From Moniliella sp. 'wahieum' (lineage: Eukaryota > Basidiomycota > Moniliellomycetes > Moniliellales > Moniliellaceae), in NCBI GenBank assembly GCA_003971905.1, contig RSEE01000016.1:620001-684000 (forward strand): DNA of 64,000 bases, in the 5' to 3' direction. Of the stretch, positions 24,368 through 29,550 are shown in pieces; position 1 is the stretch's first letter, and every line of letters begins with the position of its first letter. The notes below the pieces were generated by a model. It did not search any database. It was not told where the DNA came from and saw only the letters and a list, made by a program, of their open reading frames with translations. The position numbers and the translations under genes were made by a program.

Positions 24368-25309
24368 ATGGCCTACGCCCCGGCGCGTCTCCCGCTTCCC
24401 TTGGCCTCCCTCCACACCTCCTCCTCCACTCCCGCCCAGGTGCACGAGCCGCCAGCGACCGAGGGCCGCGACATCCACGACAACCACGTATGGGATGCGA
24501 TCCAGCGGCAGGAAGCCGAGAACCCGCATGATCCAGCCGACAACCCGATTTGGAAGCAGGACAAGGAACTCGTCGATGCGACGGTGGTGCTGCAAGAGAG
24601 TGGGACGAGCATGTGACCAGTGTTCACCGCCAAACTCGTTTCTTTGCCGGCGAGGATCTTAGCGGCCAACCCAAAGCTGTCCGTGGGGGCATCCCAGGCT
24701 TTGTCTACCCTTCGCAAGACCCGGAGAACCCCGAGCCTCTCGGCCCGACTGGGCCAACAAGCCCTCGATGTCAGAGCGCTTGTTAAGCACGCGTTCCTCA
24801 CGGAAATTGCGCGGGGTATGCTGGTTGTCTTGGCCAACTTTTTCCGTCCGCCGTACACCATCATGTACCCGTACGAAAAGGGTCCGTTGAGCCCTCGCTT
24901 CCGCGGTGAACACGCCCTGCGGCGCTACCCTACCGGCGAAGAGCGATGCATTGCCTGCAAGCTCTGCGAGGCCATCTGCCCAGCCCAGGCCATTACATTG
25001 AATCGGAGGCGTGCCGATGGGGCAAGGCGTACTACCAAGTACGACATTGACATGACCAAGTGCATCTACTGTGGCTTTTGCCAGGAGGCGTGCCCGGTGG
25101 ACGCGATTGTCGAGAGCAAAAACGCCGAGTTCTCGACCGAAACGCGCGAGGAGCTCATGTACAACAAGGAGAAAACTCTTGGCTAATGGCGACCGTGGGA
25201 GTCCGAATATGCTACCAACCTCAAGCAGGTACGCCCTTCCCTCACATGCGGATTGAGACTGGAACTAATCACTTCTCTACTGCTCTTACAGGACCACCTG
25301 TATCGTTGA
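24368..25309 (+). CDS. NADH:ubiquinone oxidoreductase 23 kDa (TYKY/NDUFS8) subunit
   Basis: Carries the two 4Fe-4S clusters N6a and N6b that pass electrons toward ubiquinone in complex I of the mitochondrial inner membrane. Diagnostic blocks: [48 protein letters not shown], then the cluster motifs [12 protein letters not shown] and [19 protein letters not shown]. The 3' end needs two nearby corrections (an extra A at about 25177, a missing T at about 25192) to read [20 protein letters not shown]; intron 25229-25291 is followed by a six-codon last exon DHLYR-stop. The N terminus is uncertain: [20 protein letters not shown] at 24368 looks like a targeting peptide and is followed by [20 protein letters not shown], but an in-frame TGA occurs at 24614-24616, which may be an intron boundary (GTGACC...TTAG) or an error. 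Confidence 0.88.
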
Positions 25310-25892
25310 TAGGCATCGCTTCCTTTGTGCAATGATTACATTCTGCGCTCTCCGGTACTGGCGTTGATATATGGCAGGATGGGGCATAACATGTTCCGGC
25401 ACTTGGGGGGCAGCCGGCGCAAGGAGAGAGGAGCGAGCTTGAGAAAAATGAAGGGTGGAGACCTTGACGGGTGAATGAGGTTGAAGGTTGAATGGACGTG
25501 AAGTGGTGGCGATGGTGCTTGGGACCATACCCCCCGAGCTTCGTCTGCTTTACTCATCGTCACTGGCGCTAACGTCAACGCCGCTTGCGCGTGACTATTG
25601 ACTGCGTACAAAGTGGCTAGCGGCCAAGCTGTCTTCAAGCTTCACGCGTCACGCTTCAAACTTGGAGCTTCCAGCTTCAAGTTGAAGCTGCTTGGCTGTT
25701 AAATGATACGCTAGGGTTACGAATATACTGCCCTCGTGCTGGATGGGGTTCATCCATTTCAAAAATCAGGGTTGCGCATCTACCTTCTGCGCGCGCCCAA
25801 ACAGCTCCTGCCGAACAATCACAACGGGAAACCACAACACGGCCACAGCCACACCACCATCTCCTCCGTGCTCGTCTTCGTCTCTGGCGGCC
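25310..25892. other. Intergenic region upstream of RanGAP
   Basis: No gene is recognised. At about 25631-25690 there is a cluster of CTTCAAGC and CGTCACGC direct and inverted repeats, related to elements at 8848, 32907 and 60247. The final 80 bases before the ATG are CA/TC-rich (ACACCACCATCTCCTCC), suiting a leader. Confidence 0.5.
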
Positions 25893-28330
25893 ATGTCATC
25901 CACTGTGTTTTCTCTTGCGGGCCAAAACCTTAAGCTCGACTCGGCGGAGGACATTCGTCCATACGCCGATCAACTGGCTGCGCTCCCTTCTGTCACCGAA
26001 ATCCACCTCGGCGGCAACACCCTCGGCGTGGCTGCTGCTGAGGCCCTGGCGACCGTGATTGGCACAAAAAGACGCTCAAGGTATGCTATCCCTCTTTTTT
26101 TCCTTGGCGGGAAAGATGGAGCGAGCTGCTGACTTCTTTCCCTTCGCTCTTTGGCTAGGTTGCCGACTTTGCCGACATTTTTACTGGGCGCCTCATTTCA
26201 GAAATCCCAGATGCGCTTCGGGCGCTGTGTAGTGCTTTCGCCCACCTCATCCCTCCGGTGGTGCGTTGGAAGAGGTCGACCTGTCGGACAATGCGTTTGG
26301 TGGGCGCAGCGTTGAGCCTCTCGTTCCACTCCTCGAGCTTTCGCCTTACATCAAGGTGCTAAAACTGGGCAACAATGGGCTTGGCCCTGAGGGCGGTGCG
26401 GTCGTGGCTGATGCGTTGACGCGAGGTGCGGAGGAGGCGAGGTTGAAGGGGTCTCCATCTCAGTTGCGAGTGATCGTCTGCGGGCGGAACCGACTCGAGG
26501 ATGGCAGTTCGTCCCAACTGGGCCAAAGCACTGGCGAGCCATGGCGCACTGGAGGAGGTGCGGCTGTACCAGAATGGGATTCGGATGAAGGGCATCGAAA
26601 CGATTGTCTTGGATGGCTTGGCGAAGAACCTCAACCTGCGTATCATTGATCTCCAGGACAACACCGCCACTCTTCGGGGCGCCCGGGCTGTGGCCAAGGC
26701 GCTTCCCAACTGGCCGCACCTCACTGAACTTCAACTGAGTGAGACGCTACTTCGCCCGCGCGGGGGACGAATGGTGATCGAATCTCTGTCCAAGGGGTAC
26801 AAGGCGATGACCAAGATTGGCCTGGCATTTTGTGACTTGGGTCCGGACAGCATTGCCGGTCTGTCAGACGTGGTGCGGGTCATGCCGGCGCTGGAACATG
26901 TGGACGTGAACGGCAACTTTGCTGAGGAGGATGGGGCTGAGCTGGAAGCACTCCGTGATGCGCTGGAGGCCATTGGGCGAGCGGATGCGTTGGCCGAGAC
27001 GGACGAGATGGACCCAGAAGGTCTGGAGGAACTCTCCGAAGATGAGGACATTAGCGATCGCGAAAGTGAAGACGAAGCCGAGGCCCAAGAGCCTCCTCCT
27101 GCCCCCGTTGATGAGGACGACGAGCTGGCAAAGCAGCTTGGTGCTGTTGGTTTGAACGATGTCAAGCCGTCTGCTGTCTTCAGCTTGGCTGGGCAGGGGC
27201 TCAGGCTCGATTCTGCTGCTGACATGGAGCCGCATCTCAAGTTGTTACGTTCCCAGCAAGGCGTGGAGGAGATCATCCTGTCGGGAAACACGATTGGGGT
27301 AGGTGCCGCTGAGGCACTGGCAGAAGTTATCAAAACCTTGCCGACGCTCAAGAAAGTCAACTTGGCCGACATTTTCACTGGCCGTCTGATTTCTGAGATT
27401 CCTGATGCTCTCCGGGCTCTGTGCTTGGCCCTCACGAGCATTGTCCCACCCCATGGGAGCTTGGAGGAAGTGGACTTGTCGGACAACGCGTTTGGCGGTA
27501 GATCGGTGGAGCCATTGGTGCCTCTTTTGGAAGTGGCGCATTCGCTGCGTGTGCTCAAGCTGGGCAACAATGGCCTCGGTCCCGAGGGAGGCGCTGTCGT
27601 GGCCAATGCACTGGCCCGTGGGGCCCAGCAGGCTCGCAAAGATGGACAAACGTCCAAGTTGAAGGTCCTCATTTGCGGCAGGAACCGTTTGGAGAATGGT
27701 AGTGCTGCAGCCTGGGCTACTGCTCTGTCAGCTCATGGTGAGCTGGAAGAGGTACGGCTGTACCAGAACGGAATCCGTATGGAGGGGATCGAGACCATTG
27801 TCTCCGCCGGTCTGGCTGTCAACAAGACCCTCAAGGTGGTGGATCTGCAGGACAACACGGCGACGCTGCGGGGAGCCAAGGCGGTGGCCAAGGCCTTGCA
27901 ACAGTGGCCTGAGCTGGAGGAGGAACTGCAATTGAGTGAGACGCTCTTGCGTCCCAAGGGTGCGGCTTTGGTTGTTGAGGCCCTCCGCACTGGCGGACAC
28001 AAGAACTTGCGTCGGCTTGGCCTTGCGTTCTGTGACGTGCCTGCTTCGACATTGGCCACTCTTTCGCCTTTGATCAAGGAGCACAAATGGGCCCTCGAGC
28101 ACATTGATGTGAATGGGAACTTTGCCGAGGAAGAGGGCCCGGAGATCGAGTCTTTGCGAGAAGCTCTTGCATCTATTGGGGGGGAACATGCTTTGGCAGA
28201 CACGGACGAAATGGACCCTGAGGGAGAAGACGACCTGTCGAGCGACGAAGATGTCTCCGACCACGAGGATGACACAGAACCGGCACCTGCTCCTGAGGTG
28301 AGCAAGGCGGTAACTTCGGCGTCCAAGTAA
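25893..28330 (+). CDS. RanGAP (Rna1 type) with two complete tandem catalytic LRR units
   Basis: RanGAP stimulates GTP hydrolysis on cytoplasmic Ran and so drives nuclear transport. Unit 1 starts MSSTVFSLAGQNLKLD; unit 2 starts SAVFSLAGQGLRLD at about 27170. Each unit has the full set: GNT(L/I)GV-AAEALA, DIFTGRLISEIPDALRAL, LSDNAFGGRSVEPLVPLLE, LGNNGLGPEGGAVVA, CGRNRLE(D/N)GS, QNGIRM(K/E)GIETIV, DLQDNTATLRGA, GLAFCD, VNGNFAEE and an acidic tail. Both keep the Arg of TGR and the Asn pair of GNNGLGP that correspond to functionally important positions in fission yeast Rna1. Intron 26081-26158 occurs only in unit 1. The frame is open without a stop from 26501 to 28330; breaks in unit 1 lie at about 26072 and 26512. 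About 790 residues, twice the usual length. Synonymous sites differ between units, so it is not an assembly duplicate. Confidence 0.9.
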
Positions 28331-28578
28331 TCGTGACGGTCTTTTGCCTGTTACCTATTAATCACCTACCTATCCTCCGTTACCCACATCATCACCCTGA
28401 CGCCACTGGACTGTCGTGTTTTTCCTGTTGCTCATGCCTACCTGGACCCTTTAGGGTCTGCCAGCATGATGCAGATTGCTCGTTGAAGAATTGGCACTGA
28501 AGAATAGCCGGACGGTTGTAGTAGATTGAATGATGGCAGCCGAAAGAGAAGACAAATGCAATGTCCACGTAGTGTCAC
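28331..28578. other. Short convergent intergenic space
   Basis: Tail-to-tail spacer of about 250 bases between RanGAP (+) and the deformylase (-). Nothing else is seen in it. Confidence 0.4.
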
Positions 28579-29550
28579 TCAGGCAAACACGACCGTCTTT
28601 GCGCCGTTGGGCAGGACGCGGTGCTCAGCCATCCAGCGTACGGCGCGGCTGAGCACGCGGGCTTCAATGTCCGCACCAATCTGTACCAGATCGGAGGGAG
28701 AATCCGAGTGAGCCACACGTTCCACGTCCTGCTCGATAATTGGCCCCTCATCCAGATCGGCAGTGACGAGATGGGCAGTAGCACCAATGATCTTGACCCC
28801 ACGGTCGTATGCCTGATGGTAAGGCTTGGCGCCCTTGAAGGAGGGAAGGAAGGAGTGATGAATGTTGATAATCTGACCCGAGAGGGCCGTACAAAGCTTA
28901 TCGCTCAAAATTTGCATGTAGCGTGCCAGCACGACGAGCTCAACGTCATATTTCTTGACCAGCGCCATAAGTTCTCTTCTTGCCACTCCTTCGTTTTCCC
29001 CGAAGCGACATCAATCGGGAGGTGGTAAAAGGGAATTCCATGCCGCTCCGCCAGCGACTGGTACGTCGCATGGTTCGAGACAATCAGTGGGATATCAATA
29101 GGCAGCGTGCCCGAACTGTGGCGGAAAAGAAGGTCATTAAGGCAGTGACCAATCTTGCTGACCATGATGAGTGTACGGGGGCGAGCATCAGCGCGGTGAA
29201 GGTGGAAGTTGACGTCGTAGGGACTGGCCAAGAAACGGGCAAAGTCGCCTCGGAGCTCGGCCATGCGGGCTTCGCGCATCGTCTCAGCCTCTGCCGGGTC
29301 AGAGGGAGTAGCACCGCGAGGAAGCAGCCCCGTGGCATGAACGCGCATGAAGAACCGATTTGTCGTGGGATCGCCAAACTGATCCGAGTTGATAATTAAA
29401 GCCACGCTGGGCCAAAAAGCCTGTGACAGCATAAACTATGCCGCTCTGGTCTGGGCAAGCGAGCGTCAAGATAATGTTGTTCACCTCAGGGTTCTGCTTG
29501 CGCTTTGGGTTGGCGGTCGTCTTGGACGGCTTGGGCAGGGGCGAGGGAAG
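28579..29550 (-). CDS. Formyltetrahydrofolate deformylase (PurU type)
   Basis: Hydrolyses 10-formyltetrahydrofolate to tetrahydrofolate and formate (EC 3.5.1.10), balancing one-carbon units. An N-terminal ACT-like domain begins [20 protein letters not shown] with GFLAQRGFN. The formyltransferase fold follows: [45 protein letters not shown], then [35 protein letters not shown] (catalytic Asn/His), [15 protein letters not shown] and [17 protein letters not shown] (catalytic Asp), ending KTVVFA. Frame breaks at about 29395 and about 28965. The first ATG is not obvious: the open frame upstream reads [18 protein letters not shown], and a polypyrimidine stretch before it (about 29545-29580) looks like a splice acceptor, so one or more 5' exons probably lie farther right. 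Known from bacteria and from a scattering of fungi. Confidence 0.88.

Follow-up and report, generated by a model that had tools for sequence, protein, structure and literature searches.

RanGAP switches off Ran, the GTPase of nuclear transport, and sets the Ran gradient that gives this transport its direction; it has been treated as a one-headed enzyme. Single-unit fungal Rna1p (PDB 1yrg, 1k5d) measures about 390-430 residues in most of the fungal entries listed. We analysed a stretch of 64,000 nucleotides (the window; positions 620,001 to 684,000 of contig RSEE01000016.1, here C16) from the genome of the basidiomycete Moniliella sp. 'wahieum' (69.5 Mb, 223 contigs), in which a gene at 25893-28330 of the plus strand, gene A, carries two Rna1-type RanGAP units head to tail. 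The leucine-rich repeat (LRR) fold, the contact residues, the acidic tail and the end motif are common to Rna1p and gene A, whereas gene A has two units and the motif has become internal. The tandem RanGAP is real and conserved, and it is likely that gene A encodes a bivalent, fully catalytic RanGAP which does the cell's RanGAP work together with a paralogue, gene B.

The tandem had been proposed from the letters of the window without database searches (hereafter the sequence-only reading), and it holds. Compared with S. pombe rna1p (1k5d chain C), unit 2 (27155-28327) scores E = 4.6e-69. Between unit 2 and the in-frame pieces of unit 1, identity is 65% in an alignment of 335 columns (414 bits, against 23 bits for the best of 50 shuffled controls); an NCBIfam search gave no model for unit 2. 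The start codon and the N-terminal part of unit 1 lie in a first exon (25893-26080), the frame of which is broken near the exon end in this assembly and continuous at the same place in a second copy of the gene on contig C4. A 78-nucleotide GT-AG intron follows (about 26081-26158), directly before VADFADIFTGR, as recognised from sequence and frame layout, and has no counterpart in unit 2; an insert at this position is read through in the single-unit homologue P0063, and P0065 and P0105 start there. The LRR body of unit 1, with TGR, NNGLGP, GRNRLE, QNGIR and LQDNTAT, occupies 26159-26977 and contains two further frame breaks, near 26.26 and 26.51 kb. It is followed by a linker (26978-27172) made of the unit 1 acidic tail and the end motif DDELAKQLGAVGL, the intact LRR body of unit 2 (27173-28180), and a C-terminal acidic tail with the stop codon (28181-28330), which lacks the LAxxL end motif. 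The two LRR bodies measure about 331 residues (joined pieces) and 336 residues. The sequence-only reading had described a single reading frame, which is true of 26501-28330, a frame open through the last part of unit 1, the linker and all of unit 2, but not of the rest of unit 1, which an intron and three frame breaks interrupt. Its join of about five residues is right if unit 1 is taken to include the acidic tail and end motif, but from LRR body to LRR body the distance is 65 residues. Each unit does have its acidic tail, with 25 aspartates and glutamates among the 65 linker residues and 18 among the 49 of the C-terminal tail.

When the genome was searched in six frames with unit 2 as the query, every one of the 20 matches (E <= 0.001) fell at one of four loci: C16 and C4 hold two copies of gene A, and contigs C122 and C132 two copies of gene B, which consists of three RanGAP units, the last degenerate. 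The C4 copy is 97% identical to the window along the entire fetched 7 kb, as expected of a second haplotype or a recent duplicate; C122 and C132 match at 97% over 8.5 kb. At the junction of units 2 and 3 of gene B lies a candidate intron (GTATGT...CAG, 59 and 58 nucleotides in the two copies), the removal of which is predicted to bring the third unit into frame. No stand-alone single-unit RanGAP was found among the best candidates scored in the six-frame search, and genes A and B thus appear to carry the RanGAP function. When 16 kb of the window served as a DNA query against the genome, the C4 copy went unlisted despite its 97% match over 7 kb, and this search was therefore disregarded for copy number; a Pfam LRR_6 search was uninformative, with 0 matches in the genome and 0 in its 14 controls. 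A search for the RanBP1 domain gave 13 matches on nine contigs.

We take R74 and N131 to be Ran-contact residues of rna1p. D225 is named as a Ran-contact residue of RanGAP in passages of PMC6329532. All three are present in both window units, as the sequence-only reading had claimed for key residues in general, and of 82 otherwise invariant positions 78 are kept in unit 1 and 77 in unit 2. The duplication is old, again as proposed, the proportion of synonymous differences between the units (pS) being saturated at 0.78; that of nonsynonymous differences (pN) is 0.26. The ratio of nonsynonymous to synonymous rates (dN/dS), a check which that reading had suggested and which we extended to gene B, is 0.16 for unit 1 against gene B unit A and 0.156 for unit 2 against gene B unit B, values that are rough because dS is about 2. 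Between C16 and C4, codons away from gaps differ mainly synonymously (19 synonymous and 8 nonsynonymous differences in 355 codons of unit 1 and its tail; 4 and 1 in 373 codons of unit 2). These rates fit purifying selection on both units.

The strict end motif, [DE]..LAxx[LMV]..[LIV], is found in 156 of the 197 single-unit RanGAP tails examined (from fungus-dominated homologue listings with many unnamed entries), and in 151 of these 156 it lies at most 19 residues from the C-terminus. Unit 1 had been said to run to the residues that normally end the protein, and this is right as to the kind of motif: in gene A, DDELAKQLGAVGL stands inside the linker and not at the end of unit 2. Because of this position, unit 1 looks like the complete ancestral protein, behind which unit 2 would have been added. 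The strict motif is likewise in the linker of 7 of the 18 other tandems examined (P0001, P0002, P0006, P0121, P0219, P0228 and P0229), after unit 2 in none of the 18, and was not found in the linkers of P0003, P0004 and P0005. By its spacing pattern, DDELAKQLGAVGL resembles a nuclear export signal (NES). Passages of PMC4624696 report that RanGAPs have NESs within their LRR part and are exported in a CRM1-dependent manner.

The stop between the units on which the sequence-only reading was to stand or fall is absent. In both copies of gene A (C16, C4) the linker is free of stop codons, and on public contigs the frame is open through the same junction in P0001, P0002 and P0004, with linkers of 67-82 residues. 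All three have an incomplete N-terminus (P0001 begins downstream of the intron, and P0002 and P0004 begin further in). Of two long units in a single frame, the window shows the linker and unit 2, with unit 1 interrupted by an intron and frame breaks, and P0001 and P0002 show an open but N-terminally incomplete form; P0003, a relative of gene B with 952 residues, has two complete units.

A carefully built tree has 60 rows, made up of units and of 37 single-unit proteins chosen by hand from the listings; unit C of gene B, which is degenerate, and unit 1 of P0004, which is short, were excluded. In this tree all 13 units of the window clade form one group with support 100/100, and within it the units of genes A and B cluster by position (position-1 units 97/91, position-2 units 89/81). 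The tandem therefore most likely predates the split of A and B. The C132 copy of gene B was left out of trees and residue counts. In a broader, quick tree (no bootstrap, fewer window-clade rows, Heligmosomoides P0230 absent), the position-1 units group again. The approximately unbiased (AU) test does not reject a common origin with P0005 (p = 0.384). In both trees P0009, a single-unit protein, is placed among the units of P0005, which makes any branching order there tentative.

Several points weigh against a bivalent, fully catalytic product of gene A. The frame of unit 1 is broken three times in the window (near 26.07, 26.26 and 26.51 kb), and the C4 copy is broken in both units. The genome search scores best candidates only (19 of 19 scored). 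The position-2 units do not form one group in the quick tree, and separate duplications in genes A and B are not strictly rejected by the AU test (p = 0.061). The double protein is known in this species from genomic sequence, from which the catalysis of the heads is also read; and dN/dS by itself is no proof of an active head, because the degenerate third unit of gene B also has a low ratio against the other units (0.22 where computable). The frame breaks might mean that unit 1 is a decaying pseudogene and that unit 2 is the whole product, for example from an internal start, as there are three in unit 1 and none in unit 2 of the window. The C4 copy, however, is continuous at all three sites and has its breaks elsewhere, unit 2 included, and the 7 kb alignment of C16 and C4 (127 substitutions, 65 gap events, 43 of them single-base) shows length differences beyond the RanGAP gene. 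There are 12 not divisible by three in the RanGAP gene (one intronic), four gap events in the complex I subunit gene and four in the deformylase gene; the ribosomal protein SA gene, compared over 362 bases, has none. The adjoining formyltetrahydrofolate deformylase gene is itself split over two window open reading frames (profile positions 30-159 and 154-285). As C4 is continuous where the window is broken and broken elsewhere, and as gaps also occur in neighbouring genes, the frame breaks are probably assembly errors; with relatives open across the junction and C16/C4 differences mostly synonymous, the loss of unit 1 is scarcely credible.

Very improbable, too, is that the locus yields two separate proteins, through misjoined genes or two transcripts. 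A start codon within the unit 1 frame could in principle give shorter products, but the linker, without a stop in both copies of gene A, has no space for a promoter and untranslated regions, and the same layout recurs in the independent contigs of P0001, P0002 and P0004 and in P0003. An unlikely but more substantial alternative is that one head is catalytic and the other a scaffold or regulator, binding Ran, Crm1 or histones without stimulating hydrolysis. The third unit of gene B (C122) went that way, with R74, R168, N169 and R170 replaced, only 47 of the 82 otherwise invariant positions kept and a branch length of 2.04; unit 1 of P0212, a bee protein, is also without R74, R168 and R170. Neither window unit resembles these, for both retain nearly all invariant positions and the three contact residues. 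We thus prefer two heads that are both probably catalytic, on what we infer to be a single polypeptide in the cell.

Tandem RanGAPs are not confined to the relatives of this gene. Among 322 listed homologues (three overlapping listings, each of the best 120 of 1971, 2458 and 1073 matches), 17 contain two RanGAP units that each cover 200 or more profile positions, a count that is no frequency, as the listings favour doubles. Double RanGAPs in other genomes, a search for which had been suggested as a check, do exist, and the view that no two-headed form had been described stands in part: the literature searched (subscription papers were outside its scope, so that absence from print is not shown) gave no description of an in-frame tandem RanGAP, but tandems are already in the databases, and some of the nematode ones are named RanGAP or ran-2 there. 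Two or more unit-profile matches occur in 24 of the 322 proteins, 7 of which fall short of two 200-position matches. In P0054 and P0063 an intron-like insert divides what is only one unit, the repeat in P0031 is partial, and P0004, P0007, P0226 and P0275 each contain a unit that is truncated or split. Three of the 17 (P0001-P0003) are relatives of gene A or gene B, and P0001, P0002, P0005 and P0230 are N-terminally incomplete.

P0005, from an NCBI contig, and Tilletia walkeri P0007 are tandems placed in the same part of the fungal tree as gene A. Like gene A, P0005 begins just after the unit 1 intron position and has no intron in unit 2, but it has no end motif in the linker and a tail of 217 residues. 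In contrast to gene A, P0007 has two nearly identical units, which are therefore recent, converted or an assembly effect; it lies on a short contig with one full and one cut-off unit plus the apparent end of a third. The tandems of Chytriomyces hyalinus and C. confervae (P0006 and P0121, 743 and 744 residues) resemble gene A in that the motif is present in the linker and missing after unit 2, but their units are 78-80% identical and sit on a separate branch. Nematode tandems come from Ancylostoma, Trichostrongylus, Haemonchus, Nippostrongylus, Heligmosomoides (P0230), Ascaris suum and Pristionchus (ran-2). The proteins P0227 (Ascaris suum), P0228 (Pristionchus pacificus), P0211, P0213, P0217 and P0219 have two units like gene A, with the linker motif strict in P0219 and P0228 and of looser likeness in P0211, P0213, P0217 and P0227; they differ from it in their place in the tree and in an extra C-terminal region of 187-334 residues. 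EukProt P0209 (code Ihof, which we take to be Ichthyophonus hoferi) is also a tandem, as is its tree neighbour, EukProt P0123, which has a transcript-assembly-style name. The bee protein P0212 (Habropoda laboriosa) has two units 84% identical, of which unit 2 keeps the three arginines lost from unit 1; it may be a merged gene model or, if not, a second case of a degenerate tandem unit.

In the broader tree the nematode and ichthyosporean-like units group with animals and the window units with fungi, and Chytriomyces and Tilletia units stand apart from the window clade, as do the bee units; a single origin for all tandems was therefore set aside, and no common ancestry of the window tandem with the nematode ran-2-type tandem appeared in this quick tree without bootstrap. 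Since tandems occur in unrelated lineages such as nematodes and chytrids, the two-headed design probably evolved several times. The Ascaris units group with each other and the strongylid units by position; the number of origins is uncertain, because concerted evolution within proteins could hide older duplications.

Some observations concern the surroundings of these genes and other RanGAPs. Over window positions 25184-29432 or so, the C16 and C4 copies diverge by about 2.3-3 substitutions per 100 bases, but near the start of unit 2 this figure falls to 0.4, which looks like a recombination or conversion boundary. Deformylase-like DNA adjoins gene B on C122 and C132, and C43 and C51 each carry, together, DNA matching the complex I subunit and ribosomal protein SA genes of the window; such homologous blocks suggest an old large-scale duplication or a hybrid origin with gene loss. 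Among the listed proteins, P0126, named "VWFA domain-containing" in its source, has, joined to its RanGAP unit, a VWA-like region whose match is weak (E 8.6e-4) and does not reach the Pfam cut-off, and P0134 of Entomortierella beljakovae (915 residues), with a RanGAP unit plus PF02817, PF00364 and PF00198, is probably a merged gene model. Eleven of the 322 (P0009, P0017, P0022, P0024, P0026, P0037, P0046, P0047, P0063, P0105 and P0126), the named members of which we take to be Ustilaginomycotina, have a tail that is long and of low complexity, contains a [VIL]DL[SN]x(x)ELY motif and closes with an amphipathic, mostly basic stretch, e.g. KKKRGFRAAFGAIRELLK. This tail is possibly a lineage-specific membrane or pore anchor, to be compared with the WPP domain of plants and the SUMO domain of animals; inspection by eye of window positions 28200-28700 in the three forward frames did not show it.

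Gene A, then, presents a known enzyme in a variant form, to which databases already contain parallels. An in-frame duplication in an ancestor of the Ustilaginomycotina-like lineage would have given one gene for a protein of roughly 790 residues, in which a flexible acidic linker separates two Rna1-type catalytic bodies and the end motif of the old C-terminus survives in unit 1, inside the protein. Switch II of Ran would be held by each head in such a way that Ran's own glutamine hydrolyses GTP, and gene A and gene B would together carry the RanGAP function of the cell. We infer that bivalency could raise capacity per molecule, allow binding of export complexes through several Ran molecules or favour nuclear exclusion by size; the sequence-only reading had also named a possible change in Ran affinity. 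One might speculate further, with considerable doubt, that tandem fusion is recurrent in eukaryotes (Ustilaginomycotina-like fungi, Chytriomyces, the ichthyosporean-like lineage, nematodes), a bivalent GTPase-activating protein (GAP) replacing the single-unit enzyme, acting by avidity on Ran-rich export complexes or by size-based exclusion from the nucleus, and freeing extra units such as the third of gene B to become pseudo-GAP regulators. Judging by the other tandems, such a design seems to arise repeatedly. A motif that is normally terminal and here internal makes a clear prediction on where a tail signal can work, and a genome in which only tandem RanGAPs were detected offers a natural test of GAP valency, size or dosage.
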